DNA from: Buttiauxella noackiae ATCC 51607
Lineage (GTDB): Bacteria > Pseudomonadota > Gammaproteobacteria > Enterobacterales > Enterobacteriaceae
Direction: 5' to 3'
DNA length: 64,000 nucleotides
NCBI RefSeq assembly: GCF_001654865.1
Contig: NZ_LXEO01000065.1
Coordinates: 1-64,000, forward strand
Made by a program: the position numbers and the translations under genes. Position 1 is the first letter of the stretch. Each line of letters starts with the position of its first letter. Under the pieces are notes generated by a model. That model had not been told where the DNA came from. It saw only the letters and a program-made list of their open reading frames with translations, and did no database searches. Positions 20,815-61,235 of the stretch are shown piece by piece.

Positions 20815-22077
20815 ATGGCGTGGAATCAGCCCGGTAATAACGGACAGGACCGCGACCCGTGGGGAAGCAGCAAACCTGGCGGCGACTCTGGGGGTAACAA
20901 AGGAGGGCGGGATCAGGGGCCACCTGATCTGGATGATATCTTCCGAAAATTAAGTAAGAAACTTGGTGGTCTGGGCGGCGGTAAAGGCGGCGGTTCCGGT
21001 TCCGGTGGTGGTTCTTCGCAACTTCCACGTCCTCATATTGGTGGCCGCATGGTTGGCATCGTTGCCGCCGTGGCTGTCGTAATTTGGGCAGCAACTGGGT
21101 TCTATACCATTAAAGAAGCTGAACGTGGTGTTGTGACTCGTTTTGGTCAATTCAGCCATTTGGTTGAGCCGGGTCTGAACTGGAAACCGACATTCATTGA
21201 TAGTGTCAGAGCGGTAAACGTTGAGGCAGTACGTGAATTGGCGGCTTCTGGTGTGATGCTGACTTCCGACGAGAACGTTGTTCGCGTCGAAATGAACGTT
21301 CAGTATCGCGTTACCGATCCGCGTCGATATCTGTTTAGCGTGACCAGCGCAGACGATAGCCTGCGTCAGGCAACCGACAGCGCACTGCGTGGTGTTATTG
21401 GTAAATACACCATGGATAAGATCCTCACCGAGGGTCGTACCATTATTCGTAACGATACCCAGCGCGAACTGGAAGAAACCATTCGTCCATACAACATGGG
21501 TATCACTTTGCTGGACGTCAACTTCCAGGCTGCTCGCCCGCCGGAAGAGGTGAAAGCTGCATTTGATGATGCGATTTCTGCGCGTGAGAACGAACAGCAA
21601 TACATCCGTGAAGCAGAAGCGTATACCAACGAAGTTCAGCCGCGTGCTAACGGTCAGGCGCAGCGTATTCTCGAAGAAGCTCGCGCTTATAAAACACAGA
21701 CTGTGTTAGAAGCTCAGGGTGAAGTTGCTCGTTTTGCCAGATTGTTGCCGGAATACAAGGCTGCGCCGGAAATTACCCGTGAGCGTCTGTATATCGAAAC
21801 TATGGAAAAAGTGCTTAGCCATACCCGTAAAGTTCTGGTTAACGACAAAGGTGGCAACCTGATGGTGCTTCCTCTGGATCAGATGCTTAAAGGTGGTTCA
21901 CAGCCTGCGGCGAAGAGCGATACGAGTGGTGCGAACAACTTGTTGCGTCTGCCACCTGCATCCAGCTCAAGCAGCGGCAGCGCCAGCACACCGTCCTCGT
22001 CAAGCCGGGGCGATATCATGGATCAGCGCCGTGCCGACGCACAGCGCACTGATAACCAGCGCGTAGGGAGTGAATAA
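20815..22077 (+). CDS. hflK: FtsH regulator HflK
   Basis: A 420-residue SPFH protein that, with HflC, forms the large periplasmic cage around the FtsH AAA protease and modulates it. It has a Gly-rich cytoplasmic N-terminus (about 1-75), one transmembrane helix (about 79-97, IVAAVAVVIWAATGFYTI), then an SPFH/band-7 domain. A long Ala/Glu/Arg helix and a Ser-rich C-terminus follow. Two bases separate it from hflC. Useful reference for the divergent SPFH genes at 56173-60165. Confidence 0.97.
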   Translation: MAWNQPGNNGQDRDPWGSSKPGGDSGGNKGGRDQGPPDLDDIFRKLSKKLGGLGGGKGGGSGSGGGSSQLPRPHIGGRMVGIVAAVAVVIWAATGFYTIKEAERGVVTRFGQFSHLVEPGLNWKPTFIDSVRAVNVEAVRELAASGVMLTSDENVVRVEMNVQYRVTDPRRYLFSVTSADDSLRQATDSALRGVIGKYTMDKILTEGRTIIRNDTQRELEETIRPYNMGITLLDVNFQAARPPEEVKAAFDDAISARENEQQYIREAEAYTNEVQPRANGQAQRILEEARAYKTQTVLEAQGEVARFARLLPEYKAAPEITRERLYIETMEKVLSHTRKVLVNDKGGNLMVLPLDQMLKGGSQPAAKSDTSGANNLLRLPPASSSSSGSASTPSSSSRGDIMDQRRADAQRTDNQRVGSE

Positions 22078-22079
22078 CG

Positions 22080-23084
22080 ATGCGTAAGTCAGTCATTGCT
22101 TTAATTATCATCGTGCTGGTAGTGCTGTTTACCTCGGTCTTCGTGGTACAGGAAGGTGAGCGCGGAATTACGTTACGTTTCGGTAAAGTGTTGCGTGATG
22201 ATGAAAACAAGCCGGTGGTCTACGAGCCAGGTCTGCATTTCAAAGTACCGTTTATCGAGTCGGTTAAAACCCTTGATGCACGTATTCAGACTATGGATAA
22301 CCAGGCCGATCGCTTTGTAACCAAAGAGAAGAAAGACCTGATCGTCGATTCCTATATCAAATGGCGTATCAGTGATTTCAGCCGCTACTACCTGGCAACA
22401 GGTGGTGGTGACGTTTCTCAAGCTGAAGTGCTGTTAAAGCGTAAGTTCAGTGACCGTCTGCGTTCTGAAATTGGTCGTCTTGATGTGAAAGACATTGTGA
22501 CCGATTCTCGTGGCCGTCTGACTCTGGACGTTCGTGATGCGCTGAACTCTGGTTCTGCAGGTACAGACGATGAAGTGTCTACACCTGCTGCTGACGATGC
22601 GATTGCATCAGCTGCTGCTCGTGTAACGGCGGAAACCAAAGGTAAAGTGCCAGTGGTTAACCCGAACAGTATGGCAGCGCTGGGTATTGAAGTGGTCGAT
22701 GTGCGTATCAAGCAAATCAACCTGCCAGCTGAAGTTTCTGAGGCTATCTACAACCGTATGCGCGCAGAGCGTGAAGCGGTTGCTCGTCGCCACCGTTCAC
22801 AAGGTCAGGAAGAGGCTGAGAAGCTGCGTGCTACCGCCGACTACGAAGTGACTCGTACTCTGGCAGAAGCCGAGCGTATGGGCCGAATCAGCCGTGGTGA
22901 AGGCGATGCAGAAGCTGCCAAACTGTTTGCTGACGCATTCAGCCAGGATCCAGATTTCTATGCCTTCATTCGTAGCCTGCGTGCTTACGAGGCGAGCTTC
23001 AATTCTGGTCAGGACGTTATGGTGTTAAGCCCGGATAGCGATTTCTTCCGCTATATGAAAACACCAGCGAACAGTTCACGTTAA
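22080..23084 (+). CDS. hflC: FtsH regulator HflC
   Basis: A 334-residue partner of HflK with an N-terminal membrane anchor (residues 4-24, SVIALIIIVLVVLFTSVFVVQ). The SPFH domain and a charged coiled-coil helix (RMRAEREAVARRHRSQGQEEAEKLRA) follow. It acts in the inner membrane with the bulk of the chain in the periplasm. Followed by a strong terminator. Confidence 0.97.
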   Translation: MRKSVIALIIIVLVVLFTSVFVVQEGERGITLRFGKVLRDDENKPVVYEPGLHFKVPFIESVKTLDARIQTMDNQADRFVTKEKKDLIVDSYIKWRISDFSRYYLATGGGDVSQAEVLLKRKFSDRLRSEIGRLDVKDIVTDSRGRLTLDVRDALNSGSAGTDDEVSTPAADDAIASAAARVTAETKGKVPVVNPNSMAALGIEVVDVRIKQINLPAEVSEAIYNRMRAEREAVARRHRSQGQEEAEKLRATADYEVTRTLAEAERMGRISRGEGDAEAAKLFADAFSQDPDFYAFIRSLRAYEASFNSGQDVMVLSPDSDFFRYMKTPANSSR

Positions 23085-52713: not shown

Positions 52714-54051
52714 CTACGCTGCCGATTGTTCTTCTGAATCTGGCAGTTTTGGCGTCAACGGTGTCGGCTTATTGTCGATACGTGTTACCAGCAACTGGTC
52801 GATGCGGTAGTTATCGATATCCACCACTTCGAACTTATACCCGGAGAACTTCACCGAATCGGTACGTTTCGGGATTTTTCGCAGCATAAACATCATAAAG
52901 CCGCCGATGGTTTCGTAATTGCCAGACTGCGGGAACTCGTCGATATCCAGCACGCGCATCACGTCGTCAATCGGCGTTCCGCCCTCAACCAGCCACGAGT
53001 TTTCGTCACGCGCGACAATCTGCTCTTCCATGCCCTGGCCGACCAGGTCACCCATCAACGTGGTCATTACGTCGTTCAGCGTGATGATACCCACCACCAA
53101 CGCATACTCGTTCATGATAACCGCGAAGTCTTCACCGGCGGTTTTGAAGCTTTCCAGCGCTTCGGAGAGCGTCAGTGTATCCGGCACAATCAGTGTATTA
53201 CGCAGATGGACACCGCTGTTGAGTGCCATGCTCTGGTTGCCCAGCACGCGGTTCAGTAGCTCTTTGGAATCCACGTAGCCAACGATGTGGTCGATATCAC
53301 CATTACACACCAGGAATTTGGAGTGTGGGTGCTCGGCAATTTTGTTCTTCAGACTCTGTTCGTCTTCGTGCAAATCAAACCAGATAACGTTTTCGCGCGA
53401 TGTCATGGATGACGGCACAGTACGTGATTCCAGTTCAAACACGTTCTCAATCAGCTCATGTTCTTGCTTACGCAGCACCCCAGCCAGTGCACCAGCTTCA
53501 AACACGGCGTAGACATCATCAGAGGTGATGTCGTCATTACGCACCATCGGCAGTTTGAAAATGCGGAAAATGACGTTTGCCAGGCCGTTAAAGAACCACA
53601 CCAGCGGGCGGAAGATAAACAGACAGAAGCGCATCGGGTTGATGATTCGCAATGCAACAGATTCAGGCGAAATCATACCGATGCGTTTCGGAGTGAGGTC
53701 TGCAAACAGAATGAACAAGCTGGTGACCAGCGTAAAGGAGATGATAAAGCTCAGTTGGTCAGCCATTTCTGGTGAGAAGAAACGCTCCAGAAGTACTTTA
53801 AATGCCGGGGAAAACGCCGCGTCGCCGACGATACCGCCGAGAATTGCCACCGCGTTCAGGCCAATCTGCACCACGGTAAAGAACATGCCAGGACTTTCCT
53901 GCATTTTCAGTACGCGTTGCGCGTTAAGGTTGCCATCATCAGCCAGCAGCTTGAGTTTGATTTTGCGGGAAGCAGCCAGTGAGATCTCCGAAATTGAGAA
54001 GAATGCACTGACGGAAATAAGAAGAAGTATTAATAAAATACTGTTTAACAT
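52714..54051 (-). CDS. paeA: Polyamine exporter PaeA (YtfL), UPF0053/CorC family
   Basis: A 445-residue inner-membrane protein. It has an N-terminal DUF21 domain with about four helices (ILLILLLISVSAFFSISEISLAASRKIK), two CBS domains (about 205-330), and a C-terminal CorC/HlyC transporter-associated domain (about 345-430). E. coli YtfL was renamed PaeA for its role in cadaverine/putrescine export in stationary phase. K-12 has msrA next; here the SPFH-ATPase block intervenes. Confidence 0.94.
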   Translation of the reverse strand: MLNSILLILLLISVSAFFSISEISLAASRKIKLKLLADDGNLNAQRVLKMQESPGMFFTVVQIGLNAVAILGGIVGDAAFSPAFKVLLERFFSPEMADQLSFIISFTLVTSLFILFADLTPKRIGMISPESVALRIINPMRFCLFIFRPLVWFFNGLANVIFRIFKLPMVRNDDITSDDVYAVFEAGALAGVLRKQEHELIENVFELESRTVPSSMTSRENVIWFDLHEDEQSLKNKIAEHPHSKFLVCNGDIDHIVGYVDSKELLNRVLGNQSMALNSGVHLRNTLIVPDTLTLSEALESFKTAGEDFAVIMNEYALVVGIITLNDVMTTLMGDLVGQGMEEQIVARDENSWLVEGGTPIDDVMRVLDIDEFPQSGNYETIGGFMMFMLRKIPKRTDSVKFSGYKFEVVDIDNYRIDQLLVTRIDNKPTPLTPKLPDSEEQSAA

Positions 54052-54277: not shown

Positions 54278-56176
54278 TCACCCACCCAGTTTTTCTTCAA
54301 ACCTTAACAAACGCCCGGCATTGCCCAGAACGAGCAGTGTACTTAGGTTATGCAACAGGGCGGCGACCACCGCACCTGAGGCTCCTAGCCAGCCAAATGC
54401 GGCGGCGACGACAATCACCAGCGTCCAGCCCAGCCCAATAAACACATTCATCTGTAAGGTGCGGCGGCACAGGCGGCTTAAGCGTACGCAGGTTCCCAGG
54501 CGGCGTAAGTCCCCGCCAATTAATACAATATCCGCTGATGCCATGGCGATATCCGAGTCACCTGCACCCATCGCAACGCCAACCACACCCGCTTTAATTG
54601 CCAGGGAGTCGTTGATCCCATCGCCGACGACCATTGGCCGGAAGCCATTGTCGATTTGCACGCTGACCTGCTGGAGTTTGTCTGCGGGTAATGCCCCCGC
54701 TATAACGTCTTTAATCCCTACGTTCTTCGCGATGCGTTGTGCCACAGCTTCGCGGTCGCCAGTCAGTAAGAGTTGATGGTTAAGCCCAAGATCACGCAGT
54801 TCCGCCATTGCACTGGCAGCTTCGTCGCGTAAGCTATCGGCCAGTAAAATCCAGCCACGGAAACGCCCCGCCAGCACCAGCCCAACTATCGGGCCATCAT
54901 GTGGTGGTTCTTCCGGTAAATCCGCAACCTGAGTTTTGAGTAGTTCATATCGACCAAGAAACGCGTCACCCGCAGCGGTGGTTGCCGATACGCCCAGCCC
55001 CTGGTGTTCATGGACATTTTCAAGCTGCGGCCATGTGCTTTGAGGGGCGATATTGACCAGCGCCCGGCTTACCGGGTGGTTACTGGTGGCTCCAAGGCTC
55101 GCCGCCAGTGCAGACAGAACTTCAGGCGACTCACCTGCTTCAGGAATCAGCTCATGAAGTTGCAGCTTGCCGTGTGTTAGCGTGCCGGTTTTATCAATAA
55201 TCACTGCATTCAGTTCGGCTAATTCTTCGAGGAAGGCTGCACCACGAATCAAAATACCGTGACGTGCGGCAACAGTTAGCCCAGCAATAGAAGTTGCCGG
55301 CGCGGAGAGCACCAGTGCACAAGGGCAGGCCGCTACCAATACCGCTAACATGGCCTGGTCGTTTTGCGTCAAAAACCAGGTGCTGGCGGCAATCAATAAA
55401 ACCAGCAACAGATAACGCGCAGCGTGACGTTCAAGCAGGCGGGTAATCGGTGGGCTGGCTTGCTCGGCACTTTGCATCAATGCCACTACGCGCCCGAGCG
55501 TTGAGGTTTCACCGATGTGCGTCACTTCAATTCGCAACCGCCCATCAAGATTGATTGCACCACCGTAAACATTCATGCCGGGCTTTACTTCCAGCGGAAC
55601 GGACTCACCGGTGATCGGTGCGGTATCCAGACTCGCCGCTCCTTCCAGCACTCGCCCGTCAGCAGGTAGCCGGTCGCCTGCGCGCACTTCGACAATGTCA
55701 CCAGCTACCAGTTCATGGTTGTCAATTTCGTGCAGATTGCCATCTACGTCAAAGCGTCGCGCCCGGCTGTGGGTCAATTTGCTGAGCGCTTCAATAGCCT
55801 CTTGCGAGCCAATCATACTGCGTTCTTCAAGGATATGGCCGACGATCATAATCAGCGGCAGTAATGCGGCAGTGAGTAAATCCCCGGTCGCCCATGAGCC
55901 AATCAGCGCCAGCGCAACCAGTTGATCGGTGATGCCATGCAAGCTTGGGTAGCGCAGGCTGTAAAAGGCGTGGCGCAATACTGGAATGCCGACCATCAGC
56001 GATGCGGCACCCAGTAAAATATCGGCCACCGCGACTTGATCGGGTGCCAGGCCACGCCATAGCAAACCAAGAATTAATGTGCCGCTGGCGACCAGTGCCA
56101 GTATCAACTGGCGGGTAATCTGCCGTTGTTCCTGATGGCTCAGTGCGCCGCCGGGGTTAACAGTGTGGGTACTCAT
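54278..56176 (-). CDS. P1B-type metal-transporting ATPase, HMA-less, SPFH-linked
   Basis: A 632-residue P-type ATPase. Visible motifs: TGES (189-192, actuator), CPC (284-286, membrane metal site), DKTGT (328-332; Asp328 phosphorylated), HP (367-368, P1B nucleotide domain), TGD (472-474) and GDGIND (518-523). There is no N-terminal heavy-metal-associated domain and no CxxC. The last helix carries HNLST (609-613) where Zn/Cd pumps such as ZntA have a DxGAT-type motif and Cu pumps have MxxSS; this resembles CtpC-like pumps, so metal choice is open. Last gene of the operon; its start overlaps the preceding gene by four bases. Confidence 0.88.
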   Translation of the reverse strand: MSTHTVNPGGALSHQEQRQITRQLILALVASGTLILGLLWRGLAPDQVAVADILLGAASLMVGIPVLRHAFYSLRYPSLHGITDQLVALALIGSWATGDLLTAALLPLIMIVGHILEERSMIGSQEAIEALSKLTHSRARRFDVDGNLHEIDNHELVAGDIVEVRAGDRLPADGRVLEGAASLDTAPITGESVPLEVKPGMNVYGGAINLDGRLRIEVTHIGETSTLGRVVALMQSAEQASPPITRLLERHAARYLLLVLLIAASTWFLTQNDQAMLAVLVAACPCALVLSAPATSIAGLTVAARHGILIRGAAFLEELAELNAVIIDKTGTLTHGKLQLHELIPEAGESPEVLSALAASLGATSNHPVSRALVNIAPQSTWPQLENVHEHQGLGVSATTAAGDAFLGRYELLKTQVADLPEEPPHDGPIVGLVLAGRFRGWILLADSLRDEAASAMAELRDLGLNHQLLLTGDREAVAQRIAKNVGIKDVIAGALPADKLQQVSVQIDNGFRPMVVGDGINDSLAIKAGVVGVAMGAGDSDIAMASADIVLIGGDLRRLGTCVRLSRLCRRTLQMNVFIGLGWTLVIVVAAAFGWLGASGAVVAALLHNLSTLLVLGNAGRLLRFEEKLGG

Positions 56177-57225
56177 GGTTTCGAAGGTTCCTTTTGCCCG
56201 GCCGCTTGCAGGATCAAATTCGCATCATCTTTTGGAGAGACGGTAATGACGGATTCAGCCTGTGCCAGAATTGCCGCAATGCGCTCGCGATAAACCCGAG
56301 CTAACAGGTCAGGGTCGTTATGGCTGTTGGCCAGACGTGCCACCATCGCCGTGTCGGACTGCGCTTTCGCCACGCGTTCACGTGCCTGTGCCTGAGCAGT
56401 CTGGCGTGTCTGGTCAGCAAGTTGGGTGGATTTCTGGCGAATTAAAGAAGCATCGGTATTTGCGGTAGCAATCGCCTGTGACGCTTGCTGGCTGGCAGTT
56501 AATACCGCATTAAATGCGGTGACTGTGGTTTCCGGCAAGGTGGACTGCACGGTAACACGCTCAAGCGTTATCCCCAGATCGCTGCCTGATTGCGCAAGGC
56601 GTTGTAAATTTTGCTCAACGTTATGCTGAACATCAGCACGCAGGCGCTCGCGCTGCTCGGCGACATTTAAATCGCCGCTGACCATTTCCGGGCGGGCGAC
56701 AAGAATAGTATCGAGATCGCGCGCGGCGCATACCGCAACGGCTGCACGTTCAACCAGCCGGTCGAGAGCCGGAATCACATGTTCGCCCTGCAATACATAC
56801 GCCATTGGCGTGACAACACGGTAAAACACGCTGATATCTAACTGCACCACGCCTGAATCTCCAGTTAGCAGGTAACCGGAACCTGCCAGTGCATCGCTGC
56901 TGTTATCACCACGCGCATCGGCATGTTGTGCATCGAACGAGCGTAATAGCGCCGTAACGTGGTGTTCGATCACGCGGTCAGGTGCTGGCACCATCACCAC
57001 ATCGTTAATCGGCTTCGGCCAGGTGAGCAATAAACCCGGTTCGGCAATTCGTTGCTGTGCGCCGAAGTGCAGTACCACGGCGCGGCTGTCTGCGGGTATC
57101 TGGCGAATATTTGAAAACAACCAGGACGCTGCTGCCAGTAGTGTCAGCGCATACAGTGCGTAAAAGGCGAGGCGTATTGACTGCGTCCACGGGCCTGCAG
57201 GTTTATTTTTTTGATGCTCACTCAT
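56173..57225 (-). CDS. HflK-like SPFH membrane protein (third of three)
   Basis: A 350-residue protein. One transmembrane helix (about residues 18-38, IRLAFYALYALTLLAAASWLF) is followed by an SPFH/band-7 domain (about 42-230: SRAVVLHFGAQQRIAEPGLLLTWPKPI) and an Ala/Gln/Arg-rich helical region (about 240-325). Overall layout is like HflK/HflC, with little direct identity to HflK at 20815. Overlaps the previous gene by 8 bases and the ATPase by 4. Probably a structural partner of the two other SPFH proteins, by analogy with HflKC rings around FtsH. Confidence 0.82.
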   Translation of the reverse strand: MSEHQKNKPAGPWTQSIRLAFYALYALTLLAAASWLFSNIRQIPADSRAVVLHFGAQQRIAEPGLLLTWPKPINDVVMVPAPDRVIEHHVTALLRSFDAQHADARGDNSSDALAGSGYLLTGDSGVVQLDISVFYRVVTPMAYVLQGEHVIPALDRLVERAAVAVCAARDLDTILVARPEMVSGDLNVAEQRERLRADVQHNVEQNLQRLAQSGSDLGITLERVTVQSTLPETTVTAFNAVLTASQQASQAIATANTDASLIRQKSTQLADQTRQTAQAQARERVAKAQSDTAMVARLANSHNDPDLLARVYRERIAAILAQAESVITVSPKDDANLILQAAGQKEPSKP

Positions 57226-58201
57226 GAGTTTTATCCAGCTTTGGCCCTTCTACCAGCAGACGGAACGGTGCGGCATCAGTGCGTAACACCAGACGGGTGC
57301 TGGAATTAACCACGCCGCTGAGCGCATCAAGCTGGCGTAACAGGCTGTATAGCTGAGGTGAACTGGCGTACGCCTTGCCATAAATTTCGGCGGCTTGCGC
57401 CTGAGATTGCGCTTCGATATCGGCAGCCTGGACCTGTGCTTGTGCTTCCACAATGCGGGCATCACGCTCGGCTGCCGAGCGGATTTCCGCTGCTGCGCGT
57501 TTGCCTTCAGCGGTGCGTTCGGTCGCAATGGTTTCGCGCTCGGCACGCATCCGGTCGACTGTAGCGTTAAGCGTTACCGCGGGCAGGGTCAGGCGTTCGG
57601 TTCCAACCTGCACCAACCGAATGCCATAGCTTTCCAATAAGGGCTGGCTGATTTGCGCCTGCAGATGCGATTCAAACTGGTTTAACTGCACTTGTTTGCT
57701 ATCGGTATTCACCAGTTGAGAGAGCGTAAAGCCACTTGCGGTGGTTTCGAGTGCCGAGCCGAGATAAGCACGAATTTGCCGTGCCGCTTCATCGGGCTGG
57801 TTTTGTACCGCGCGCATAAAGCGCTGCACATGTTCAGGGGTACTATCAACCTGCCAGACCGCATATGACTGCACAATGATGCGCAGCCCGTCGCGCGTGC
57901 CTACATCCTGCAAGCCGCTCGAAGTCGTTCGCAGGCGCAGATCTACGGCGGTCGACATTTCAAAAGGTGCGGGCAGGCGCCAAGCAAGACCCGGATTGAG
58001 CAGCACGCGTACCGGATTACCGAACCGGGTAATAATCAGCGATTCGCCAGAGCGAACCTGCACAAGGCTTGCGGCGGCGGCAAGAATGAGCACCAGCACA
58101 CCTGCGCCAACAATGCGCTTCCAGGCTTTAGTGACAGGAGCGTCAGAATGGTGGCTGTGGTGGCAACCGCTGCTGCAACCATGATGATGTGAATGGCTCA
58201 A
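57218..58201 (-). CDS. HflC-like SPFH protein with His/Cys-rich N-terminus (second of three)
   Basis: A 327-residue protein. The first 18 residues contain eight His and two Cys (His 3, 5, 6, 7, 14, 15, 17, 18; Cys 9, 13), a likely metal-binding tail. One transmembrane helix follows (about 31-49, GAGVLVLILAAAASLVQV), then an SPFH domain (RSGESLIITRFGNPVRVLLNPGLAWRLP) and a charged helix typical of HflC (DRMRAERETIATERTAEGKRAAAEIRSAAERDARI, about 215-265). Start and stop overlap both neighbours (4 and 8 bases). Confidence 0.83.
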   Translation of the reverse strand: MSHSHHHGCSSGCHHSHHSDAPVTKAWKRIVGAGVLVLILAAAASLVQVRSGESLIITRFGNPVRVLLNPGLAWRLPAPFEMSTAVDLRLRTTSSGLQDVGTRDGLRIIVQSYAVWQVDSTPEHVQRFMRAVQNQPDEAARQIRAYLGSALETTASGFTLSQLVNTDSKQVQLNQFESHLQAQISQPLLESYGIRLVQVGTERLTLPAVTLNATVDRMRAERETIATERTAEGKRAAAEIRSAAERDARIVEAQAQVQAADIEAQSQAQAAEIYGKAYASSPQLYSLLRQLDALSGVVNSSTRLVLRTDAAPFRLLVEGPKLDKTHE

Positions 58202-60165
58202 CGGGAAGACTCCTGTGTCGGTTTGGAAGGTGCATCGTTACGTGCTGCCTGGCTTAATGAGGGAAACTCGCGCAGGTCGATAGTGGGCTGCGAGGTCGCG
58301 CCAATACGGTGGTCGATAATTAACAACGGGCTTTTGCCTAAAGTTTGATGCAACTGGCTAAACCATAATTCATCGACAAACACCTGGCCGGATTGCGCTA
58401 CCGCTTGTTTCTGCGCGGCAAAACGCACCGCCGTTGACTGCGCTTTGCTGGTCACATCGGTGGCGTTCATTTGTGCCTGGTTCTGGCGCGTGGTAGCGGT
58501 AGTTTGCGCGCTGGCGGCCAGCTCTGCCGCATGTCCACGTTCGCGAGAAACGAGCGCCTGAGCCGAAATTTGCGCGGCCTGTACGCCATGGAAGGCATCG
58601 GCAGCCCCTGCCGGAGGGTGGATAGCTTCGACGACGGTCGAGAGCAGCTCTACACCACTATGTAAGTTGTCGAGTTTTTGCTGCACCGCCTGTTTAATCT
58701 GGCTTGCTAATTCGATGCGCTGTTCCCCCAGAAGCTGCTCAAGTGTCAGTGAGGAAAACTGATGCACCAGTACCTGGTTTGCGGCGCTGCGAATCAGCTC
58801 TGGCAAATTGGCGCTGTTATAGGTTGCCGCCAGTGCTGCGTTATCGGTTAACCCAACGCGCCACATAAAACGCACGTCGCTATTAATAATTTGCAGACCC
58901 TGTTGGTTTCCGCTTTGGCTGGCAATAATCTGAGCTTTATCAAAGCTATGAATTGCATCCCAGAGACGATCGGCGCTTTGAGGTGCGTTTCCTTCCGCAT
59001 TCGCCAGCGGTTCTGAAGGAGCATCAGCTTCTTCTCCGGCTGCTAATTCATGAACCTGACCATTTTCCGCCAGTATCACCTGGCCAAATGGCCACGGCAG
59101 CCCGTAATGCAGGCCTGATGGCAACACGGCAACCGGTTTGCCAAAGCGTTCATAAATACCGCGTTGGGTTGGGGAAACCTGCTGCATTCCGGTCAATAGC
59201 CAACCGCAAAACAGCATGACTGCCAACACAGGTAAAAATGCCCGACGCAAAACCGTGAATGCCCAAAGCTGGCGTAAATCAATGCCAAAATGTTGGTGCA
59301 GCTCGCGCTGTAAAAAAAGTAGCGGGCGCGGCGGCCAGACAAGCTGTGCTGCCAGTTGGCTTTGAGCAAGGAACCTGGGTTCGCTGTCTTCTTCGCCCGG
59401 TGGAGTGAATAGTGAGAACAGGCCGCGCAGCAAAAACTCAATGGCGACCAACCCCACAAGGATCGCTGGCAGATTGACCAACACTGAGAGGTTTATTGTC
59501 GGGAATATCAGTGCTGGCAAAGAGAGAAATTGTACCGCGAGAGTCAGGCGTAATATCGGCGCAATGAATTTGGCTTCCGGCCAGGCTTCATTTGAGGTTG
59601 CTACCAGATGGCGCTCAGCAACCAGTGTGATAAACATCGCCAATGCAATAATACCGACCGCCACCCAGCGCAGGCTGCCGTCTTCCAGCGGAACGTAATG
59701 GGTTCCCCATCCTGCCTGCACGATGAATAACACGAATCCCGCCATCGAGGCCAGCCAGACACCATCACTCTTAAGTAACGCATTGATGCGTTCAACGTTG
59801 ATGGGAATGAGTGCGCCAAGTCGTTGATAAATGGTTGGAGGTGGCTCTGCTTCAAGGGGCGTGGTTTCGGGTTTTAGTGCAGGGGAGAATTTTTCTGCCC
59901 GCCACTGGCAAATTCGCTGTGCATTAAATACGGTGGTAGCGAGCAAGATGAGCAAGGCGGCCTGGCTGCTTAACAAGGCCGTCCAGCGTGAAGATGGCTC
60001 AATAATGCTGACAATCAGCGCCACCACAATCATCAAAAAAATTAGCGCACTTAATCCGAAGACTAATCTTGCAGTAAGCATCGACTGCGATGACGCTAAA
60101 GAGTAACGAGCCTGAGAAGTTAACGGTGAAGATTCCGTTGGTTCAGAAAATTGGGAGGGCTGCAT
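58198..60165 (-). CDS. Large polytopic SPFH protein (first of three)
   Basis: A 655-residue protein, first gene of the operon. The N-terminal half is a membrane domain with about six helices (near 30-55, 61-80, 136-152, 164-183, 201-222 and 226-250). A seventh follows near 311-327 (FLPVLAVMLFCGWLLTG) and leads directly into an SPFH domain (VSPTQRGIYERFGKPVAVLPSGLHYGLPWPFGQV). A long Ala/Gln/Thr helix (about 525-590) and a C-terminal PLLIIDHR segment follow. HflK-family proteins normally have one helix, so the fused membrane domain is unusual. Confidence 0.82.
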   Translation of the reverse strand: MQPSQFSEPTESSPLTSQARYSLASSQSMLTARLVFGLSALIFLMIVVALIVSIIEPSSRWTALLSSQAALLILLATTVFNAQRICQWRAEKFSPALKPETTPLEAEPPPTIYQRLGALIPINVERINALLKSDGVWLASMAGFVLFIVQAGWGTHYVPLEDGSLRWVAVGIIALAMFITLVAERHLVATSNEAWPEAKFIAPILRLTLAVQFLSLPALIFPTINLSVLVNLPAILVGLVAIEFLLRGLFSLFTPPGEEDSEPRFLAQSQLAAQLVWPPRPLLFLQRELHQHFGIDLRQLWAFTVLRRAFLPVLAVMLFCGWLLTGMQQVSPTQRGIYERFGKPVAVLPSGLHYGLPWPFGQVILAENGQVHELAAGEEADAPSEPLANAEGNAPQSADRLWDAIHSFDKAQIIASQSGNQQGLQIINSDVRFMWRVGLTDNAALAATYNSANLPELIRSAANQVLVHQFSSLTLEQLLGEQRIELASQIKQAVQQKLDNLHSGVELLSTVVEAIHPPAGAADAFHGVQAAQISAQALVSRERGHAAELAASAQTTATTRQNQAQMNATDVTSKAQSTAVRFAAQKQAVAQSGQVFVDELWFSQLHQTLGKSPLLIIDHRIGATSQPTIDLREFPSLSQAARNDAPSKPTQESSR

Positions 60166-60212: not shown

Positions 60213-60227
60213 TGTTACCATATAACA
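60213..60227 (-). promoter_or_regulatory. Inverted repeat upstream of the SPFH-ATPase operon
   Basis: On the minus strand TGTTATATGGTAACA, an inverted repeat TGTTA-N5-TAACA, lies 47 bases before the first start codon. It agrees at 11 of 13 defined positions with the Zur-type word TGTTATAnTATnACA. A possible -10 (TATGTT) overlaps it, with TTTACG 18 bases upstream, which would fit repression. Similarity judged by eye. Confidence 0.45.
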
Positions 60228-60386: not shown

Positions 60387-61025
60387 TTAGCCTTGCGGCG
60401 GCAGACACACACCAATCCCACCGATGCCACAATATCCATATGGATTTTTGTGCAGATACTGCTGGTGGTCATCCTCGGCATAATAGAATGGGCCGGCGTT
60501 GGCGATTTCAGTCGTGATATGACGGTCGTCTCCGGCGAGCGTCATTGCTTCCTGGAAGCGTGCAAAGCTTGCACGCGCGGCGGCATCCTGCTCTGGTGTG
60601 AGTGGGTAAATTGCGGAACGATATTGTGTGCCAACATCGCCACCCTGGCGCATTCCCTGGGCCGGGTCGTGATTTTCCCAGAATACTTGCAACAATTGCT
60701 CGTAACTCACTACTTGGGGGTCGTAAACCACGCGCACCGCTTCTGTATGCCCGGTCATTCCGCTACACACTTCGCGATAAGTTGGGTTAGGCGTAAAGCC
60801 CCCGGCATAACCTGCGGCGGTGCTGTAAACCCCTGGAATTCTCCAGAACATGCGTTCAACGCCCCAGAAACAACCCATCGCAAAATAAGCGATTTCCATC
60901 CCTTCTGGTACATTTGTCATGGAGTGCTCGTTTACCGCATGCAAAGTGGCGATCGGCATCGGGGTATTGCGACCAGGCAACGCTTCTGACTGTGTCACGG
61001 GATGGGTTTTCTCAAATAATTTCAT
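60387..61025 (-). CDS. msrA: Peptide methionine sulfoxide reductase MsrA
   Basis: A 212-residue enzyme that reduces methionine-S-sulfoxide in proteins. The catalytic Cys is in [11 protein letters not shown] (about residue 52). The resolving cysteines are in the C-terminal [15 protein letters not shown], as in E. coli MsrA. I used [10 protein letters not shown] at 61025; an ATG 26 codons upstream gives an unconserved extension. Divergent from tamA. Confidence 0.96.
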
Positions 61026-61235
61026 CAGTCGTGCTCTCCCGATGTTGGCTAAATTTAACAACAACCGCCGTGCGGTTGTAACGAGGCGTGTTATTGCAGA
61101 CAATAACTCCTCTGTATGAGACTACAGTACATATAAGAATTATTTGGGTTATTGTGCAGTTTTCAACCCCAATTGTTGGGGTTTTGTTAAAGCGTTTCCT
61201 TCCAGGGGTGGGAACAAGGATATTCAGGAGAAAAC

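Follow-up and report, generated by a model that had tools for sequence, protein, structure and literature searches.

A conserved, mobile operon joining three HflK/HflC-derived SPFH proteins to a P1B-type metal ATPase, and its very probable part in zinc acquisition

Why should a metal-transporting ATPase be encoded together with three proteins of the SPFH family? The question is raised by four genes in a stretch of 64,000 nucleotides from Buttiauxella noackiae ATCC 51607 (assembly GCF_001654865.1, contig NZ_LXEO01000065.1, positions 1 to 64,000; hereafter the window). A sequence-only reading had described them as one-strand genes, overlapping by 4, 8 and 4 bases, that encode three SPFH proteins of 655, 327 and 350 residues and a metal P-type ATPase. 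The open reading frames confirm this arrangement, all on the minus strand, with 632 residues for the ATPase, and Pfam finds Band_7 in three products (E-values 8.1e-25 for K1, over residues 329-546, 6.8e-29 for C and 1.1e-18 for K2) and the E1-E2_ATPase and hydrolase domains in the fourth. Here K1 and K2 denote the HflK-like SPFH proteins and C the HflC-like one. We conclude that this four-gene unit is real, conserved and mobile, and that it is very probably part of zinc acquisition. Its genes are, in operon order:

58198..60165, minus strand: K1, HflK-like SPFH protein of 655 residues (Band_7), with an added N-terminal membrane domain of six helices
57218..58201, minus strand: C, HflC-like SPFH protein of 327 residues with a TTG start (Band_7; tree; best solved relative HflC, 7vhp)
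56173..57225, minus strand: K2, second HflK-like SPFH protein, 350 residues (Band_7; sister clade of K1; model matches HflK)
54278..56176, minus strand: P1B-type metal ATPase, HmtA-like, 632 residues (TIGR01525; Pfam)

Do the four genes belong together? The order K1-C-K2-ATPase is found on one strand in all of 86 loci, made up of the best 80 of 498 relatives from a one-genome-per-species scan with a 10-row alignment of C and of six of ten plasmid records, and because this order is constant the gene set cannot be put down to chance. The loci span Enterobacterales, Pseudomonas, Marinomonas, Rhizobium, Burkholderia and Paraburkholderia. The sequence-only reading had envisaged that the genes might prove to lie separately in most genomes; the phylum-wide count given below speaks against this. 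The blemishes are few: C is interrupted in L038 and L054, the ATPase reading frame is short in L095, and L056 has an extra gene of 150 residues ahead of the ATPase. In the Buttiauxella agrestis record (L008/L038) it is a stop codon that interrupts C, the remaining three genes being open.

The pattern of inheritance likewise excludes a chance neighbourhood. In a phylum-wide set of 398 genomes, C (at E 1e-50) and the ATPase (at E 1e-110) each occur in ten, and these are the same ten, the source genome included, which bears out the proposal that a diverged SPFH set is dedicated to the metal ATPase. All ten plasmid records that carry the ATPase at E <=1e-80 also carry K1 and C, the latter at 64-67% identity. 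C was found in three more plasmid records, as relatives at 27-29% in Aquibium and Methylophaga and as a fragment covering 17% in Rhizobium sp. NXC24. Spread of the unit is patchy: it occurs in five of 149 genomes of the family (at E <1e-100) and in 13 of 25 of one Pseudomonas-like genus, and it is plasmid-borne in Klebsiella aerogenes and Burkholderia ubonensis (both plasmids typed as conjugative), Paraburkholderia sprentiae and Rhizobium. The counterparts in Buttiauxella gaviniae are 98% identical for C and K2 and 93% for K1.

The ATPase is readily classified. It scores 505 bits against TIGR01525, the heavy-metal P-type ATPase model of NCBIfam (cut-off 346), and has the CPC, DKTGT and HP motifs common to ATPases of the ZntA and CopA types, with C284-P-C286, D328KTGT and H367P all invariant in 39 of 39 aligned orthologues. 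It differs from those enzymes in that Pfam finds no N-terminal HMA domain. The closest solved chain is a cadmium-annotated P-type ATPase, 7qbz, which has HEGST where the present enzyme has HNLST, and six residues of the last two membrane helices (N577, W584, T585, H609, N610 and T613) are invariant in the same orthologues. In the alignment with ZntA (4umv), T585 falls opposite a lysine and H609 opposite an aspartate; in ZntA these two residues are ion ligands. The two motifs are located as follows:

55319..55327, minus strand: CPC metal motif of the ATPase, C284-P285-C286
54338..54352, minus strand: HNLST motif of the ATPase (H609, N610, T613), lying in its last membrane helix; the preceding helix holds N577-x6-W584-T585

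Where does the SPFH trio come from? Band_7 matches number six in the whole genome: the trio, two elsewhere in the window and one outside it, which we take to be QmcA. The two others in the window, at 21106-21621 and 22143-22808 on the plus strand, fit canonical hflK and hflC, so the operon genes are, as had been proposed, an extra and diverged set. A tree built from 49 SPFH rows recovers K1, K2 and C as one clade each, in all of 200 bootstrap replicates (100%). The K1 and K2 clades are sisters and fall with HflK, and C groups with HflC on a long branch; the deep placement is unsure because the program warns of long branches meeting, including C with an outgroup. All three proteins miss the NCBIfam equivalog cut-offs, C with 102.2 against 134.4 bits (TIGR01932), and K2 with 97.1 and K1 with 69.8 against 159.4 (TIGR01933). 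In a structure search the predicted models of K1 (modelled with AlphaFold) and K2 match HflK/C assemblies, with K2 matching HflK of an HflK/C-FtsH assembly at a Foldseek value of 8.7e-14. A solved structure entitled as aquaporin 1 bound to stomatin offers a precedent for such a pairing of an SPFH protein with a membrane channel. Significant named matches in a viral fold library are all SPFH or Band-7 proteins.

K1, C and K2 are thus derived from HflK and HflC, the proteins that form a cage around FtsH. They share with these nearest solved relatives the Band_7 domain, the coiled-coil region and an N-terminal membrane helix. They differ in being three rather than two, in their sub-cut-off scores, in having a metal ATPase as partner gene, in the six extra membrane helices of K1 and in a histidine-rich tail on C. 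The added domain of K1 is:

59413..60096, minus strand: six-helix membrane domain of K1, residues 24-251, whose predicted fold appears to resemble the membrane domain of CDF transporters but lacks the CDF metal ligands

The apparent likeness of this predicted fold to CDF transporters such as YiiP and ZnT is kept as a lead. Membership of K1 in the CDF family is rejected, the sequence tests being negative: K1 has no match to the CDF sequence profile (hhalign probability 0.3%), and its helices 2 and 5 have no position occupied by aspartate, glutamate or histidine in at least half of 28 rows. CDF metal ligands sit in helices 2 and 5. Position 218 of K1 is cysteine in 21 of the 28 rows.

The tail of C is a second departure from HflC:

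58136..58201, minus strand: His/Cys-rich N-terminal tail of C, MSHSHHHGCSSGCHHSHHSDAP, probably cytosolic

Tails were counted in 87 rows as stretches before the first membrane helix with at least five histidines, start codons being taken mechanically, by which some tails were extended upstream. On this count 84 of the 87 rows have a tail on C and 27 have one on the ATPase; 86 have it on one or both, the exception being L038, whose interrupted C was scored by its second half only. Two loci, L027 (a Klebsiella plasmid) and L049 (Sodalis), carry the tail on the ATPase only, implying that it has changed place within the unit. The corresponding stretches of K1 and K2 have 0-3 histidines, apart from one row each with six. 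Since SPFH domains of the HflK/C type face the periplasm (PMC2636767), the tail of C should lie in the cytosol.

Descent from HflK and HflC raises the alternative that the trio acts on FtsH. FtsH is itself a zinc protease, and the trio might modulate it in zinc starvation as an alternative HflKC cage, with the ATPase a co-regulated neighbour. The grouping of K1, K2 and C with HflK and HflC accords with this, as do solved relatives that include HflK/C-FtsH assemblies, and two papers on Pseudomonas aeruginosa raise an FtsH link for PA2437-2439 (PMC11761036, PMC9431628). We nevertheless think it unlikely. C and the ATPase were not found apart in the 398 genomes or the 86 loci, a metal tail is carried by C or the ATPase, and the canonical HflK/HflC pair is present beside a trio that misses the cut-offs for either protein.

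SPFH proteins organise membrane domains, and a trio of them could also be a chaperone scaffold that stabilises the ATPase or places it in a lipid domain, with neither chamber nor metal hand-over. Besides this general property of SPFH proteins, the proposal could draw on neighbouring genes in Pseudomonas, where a cfaB family lies nearby in 51 of the 86 loci and a cardiolipin-synthase family in 54 (one member of each was tested with a hidden Markov model). These lipid genes are confined to the loci with Pseudomonas in their titles and could reflect synteny and nothing more, and the histidine-rich tail of C argues for a direct part in metal handling, which leaves this alternative rather doubtful.

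Which metal, and under what control? Ahead of K1 stands a candidate operator, separated from its start codon by 47 nucleotides, with its far edge 62 nucleotides upstream:

60213..60227, minus strand: Zur-type operator TGTTATATGGTAACA, a 15-base palindrome that fits 12 of the 13 positions of TGTTATANNATAACA, which we take to be the Zur consensus

A first scan of 87 operon promoters finds 73 that agree with this consensus at 10 or more of its 13 positions, compared with 3.2% of 4,350 single-base shuffles and 3.4% of 1,720 random windows taken from these loci. Among the 14 misses, L072, L078, L107 and L112 show an 11/13 site when a start codon further downstream is used. Across the genome (4.8 Mb), the pattern occurs with at most one mismatch at eight places, giving 12 strand-hits against three for a reversed-pattern control. 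The other seven places are at zinT, between znuA and znuC, at L31 type B, at an ABC-3 transporter whose ATPase has the zinc AztA model as its nearest match (203 bits, under the cut-off of 220), at a protein of 84 residues, and near ppiB and near arcA, neither of which is to our knowledge a Zur target. In 32 of the 86 loci, all of them Pseudomonas, there is nearby a gene from a family of which the member tested is ZigA, a zinc chaperone. The box suggests that the operon belongs to the Zur regulon, and that its metal context is zinc starvation.

Copper as the sole metal was considered and set aside: genes of copper-chaperone or bufferin type adjoin some loci, yet the regulator signal is that of Zur. 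Among such genes in Pseudomonas, one for the MNIO bufferin maturase BufB comes shortly after the operon, for example at L078:14241-15089 (family in nine of the 86 loci), and a DUF2063/HvfC-like gene is similarly placed, for example at L085:15133-15921 (eight loci). Three Rhizobium-type loci (L028, L034 and L125) have in common a perfect palindrome, GATACGTAATAACGTATC, near the K1 start, possibly the site of another regulator. The protein of 84 residues mentioned above (L131:1336-1626, on contig C7 of the same genome) follows a perfect Zur-type palindrome, looks secreted, has a cysteine-rich C-terminus and has no match in Pfam or NCBIfam; another gene in that stretch is a candidate ParA ATPase by its first residues.

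The sequence-only reading knew of no functional description of such an operon; in this it was mistaken. By gene order the operon is the hmtA locus of P. aeruginosa (PA2439-PA2438-PA2437-PA2436-PA2435-PA2434), whose ATPase is a reported zinc and copper importer and whose SPFH trio has already been deleted (PMC13086221). The two loci agree in the order HflK-family, HflC, HflC-family, ATPase, in a Zur-type promoter and in the P1B class of the ATPase. They differ in the host, which is here enterobacterial, and in the absence from the window of any gene between K2 and the ATPase, hence of a PA2436 counterpart. A gene of 150-161 residues does occupy that place in four loci of a Pseudomonas-like genus: L124:12142-12594, L160:18155-18607 and L163:17335-17820, for which Pfam gives no match, and L056:12092-12544 (Pseudomonas sp. 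30_B).

The P. aeruginosa genes respond to zinc. In a znuA mutant they are reported as raised 6.5-fold (PA2434), 5.6-fold (PA2435, HmtA), 14.4-fold (PA2437), 10.6-fold (PA2438) and 9.0-fold (PA2439), the Zur site listed for the locus being weak (PMC4542158), and PA2437-2439 are up in another account of the zinc-starvation response, where FtsH is discussed (PMC9431628). Protein levels of HmtA and PA2437-2439 are given as higher under zinc depletion (PMC11761036); the text of that paper calls PA2438 (by one method) and PA2439 significant, and its table has p values of 0.011/0.053 for PA2438 and 0.184/0.065 for PA2439. Zur with zinc shifts the PA2439 promoter in vitro (PMC8531726). Overexpression of HmtA raises cellular zinc and copper according to a review, which adds that import needs confirmation (PMC10393844).

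A study of April 2026 names the trio PaFlo5-PaFlo6-PaFlo7 (PA14_33070/33080/33110) and describes these same three SPFH proteins as one predicted operon, present in few species of different classes and probably spread horizontally (PMC13086221). In its available text the trio is not linked to the ATPase or to Zur-controlled uptake: the main text has the words 'atpase' and 'copper' nowhere and 'zinc' once, and the legend to its Figure 1 describes as unrelated any gene that is neither SPFH nor nfeD.

Could the pump work in the opposite direction, exporting zinc or copper to load a periplasmic cage chamber for metalloenzymes? Among the solved P1B relatives, several carry the name of exporter or efflux ATPase, P-type metal ATPases are usually efflux pumps (PMC10393844), a histidine-rich cytosolic tail could deliver metal to such a pump, and in Paraburkholderia the unit lies next to a gene for a PCu(A)C copper chaperone. 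Induction by zinc starvation (PMC4542158, PMC11761036) together with the Zur box fits uptake, as does the reported rise in cell zinc and copper on HmtA overexpression (PMC10393844), and we regard export as quite improbable.

On balance it seems probable that the operon encodes an HmtA-like system for metal uptake, induced by zinc starvation and consisting of the ATPase and a dedicated scaffold derived from HflKC. Zinc-loaded Zur would repress the four genes by way of the box. When zinc runs short, K1, C and K2 would build a hetero-oligomeric scaffold in the inner membrane, with the SPFH domains in the periplasm if the topology of the HflK/C family holds. The ATPase would sit in or against this scaffold, as its strict co-inheritance with C suggests, and would move zinc, and perhaps copper, between periplasm and cytoplasm; by analogy with P. 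aeruginosa HmtA the direction would be inward. The tails of many copies of C, and sometimes of the ATPase, could stand as a ring of arms on the cytosolic side that bind the metal and either accept the ion or pass it on. A bolder version, in which we place little confidence, has the trio build a periplasmic chamber around the ATPase that turns an export-type pump inward for zinc, with the CDF-like domain of K1 as vestibule or lid and the tails of C trapping the ion on the cytosolic side.

Several observations weigh against this account of scaffolded uptake. No site of at least 10/13 is found in ten promoters, those of six plasmid loci, Marinomonas L108, Sodalis L049, L092 and L105, the re-inspection of start codons having covered the misses other than the last two. 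Gene order and annotation are the grounds for calling the ATPase an orthologue of PA2435. The proteomic p values for HmtA are 0.052/0.121, and most of the rises in its neighbours have values above 0.05 (PMC11761036). In one study hmtA mRNA is described as low and unrepressed by added zinc, and the authors suggest mainly copper import (PMC8531726); the review states that Zur bound all uptake promoters except that of hmtA, in conflict with this primary text (PMC10393844). Because the import assays, as the review reports them, name overexpressed HmtA only, the scaffold may be unnecessary for direction. Deletion of the trio left growth in LB medium unchanged and by the abstract gave no strong phenotype; in the outline of that paper, zinc limitation is absent from the assays (PMC13086221). 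Neither this analysis nor the literature passages available gave evidence of interaction between trio and ATPase, whose caging or clustering we infer, and relatives of HflK and HflC could instead act on FtsH.

The surroundings of the operon in the window are as follows:

52714-54051: paeA, at one flank of the operon
60387-61103: msrA, at the other flank

In one Escherichia coli record examined, msrA and paeA are directly adjacent with no intervening gene; megablast of the operon against E. coli gave no match, more distant copies not being sought. In two other Buttiauxella loci (L035:14242-14538 and L039:14236-14532) a small open reading frame between operon and paeA is a candidate toxin of RelE/ParE type by its first residues, its family occurring in four of the 86 loci. 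A defence system is rejected, PADLOC matching none of the four proteins. Pseudomonas loci such as L055 and L107 have cfaB and cardiolipin synthase close by, and a CDP-alcohol phosphatidyltransferase family lies upstream in 18 loci; this too may be synteny.

A plasmid of Aquibium oceanicum (L031:8358-17047) carries another trio, HflK-HflC-HflK. Genes for a peptidylprolyl isomerase and a long P-type ATPase for heavy metals come next, then those for PCu(A)C and SCO; the set may be a copper analogue of independent origin. In 249 genomes of one order, no close relative of this C is found: 86 match at 1e-45 with a best identity of 38% and were taken for canonical HflC. The second HflK of the set has no plasmid relative above 60% identity besides itself. 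Since these two proteins lack close relatives, we do not take it as general that an SPFH trio goes with a P1B ATPase.

The locus is thus already known; what is new, within the literature searched, is its treatment as one joined system. For the SPFH half we found no role assigned there. We found no publication with both 'SPFH' and 'HmtA', and none combining SPFH, P-type ATPase, HflK and operon, in a search that lay mostly outside subscription journals. Three of the zinc papers name HflK/HflC-type genes beside HmtA or FtsH with no transport role given in the text available (PMC4542158, PMC11761036, PMC9431628).

In the zinc papers HmtA figures as a P1B pump with an odd, inward direction; in the SPFH paper PaFlo5-7 are scaffolds to which no task is given. 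Viewed as one conserved unit, the trio acquires a client and the pump acquires three partners. Were the chamber version true, we know of no earlier bacterial case in which an SPFH scaffold serves a single active transporter. Two questions, what accessory SPFH proteins do and how a P1B ATPase imports, thereby become testable in one operon.

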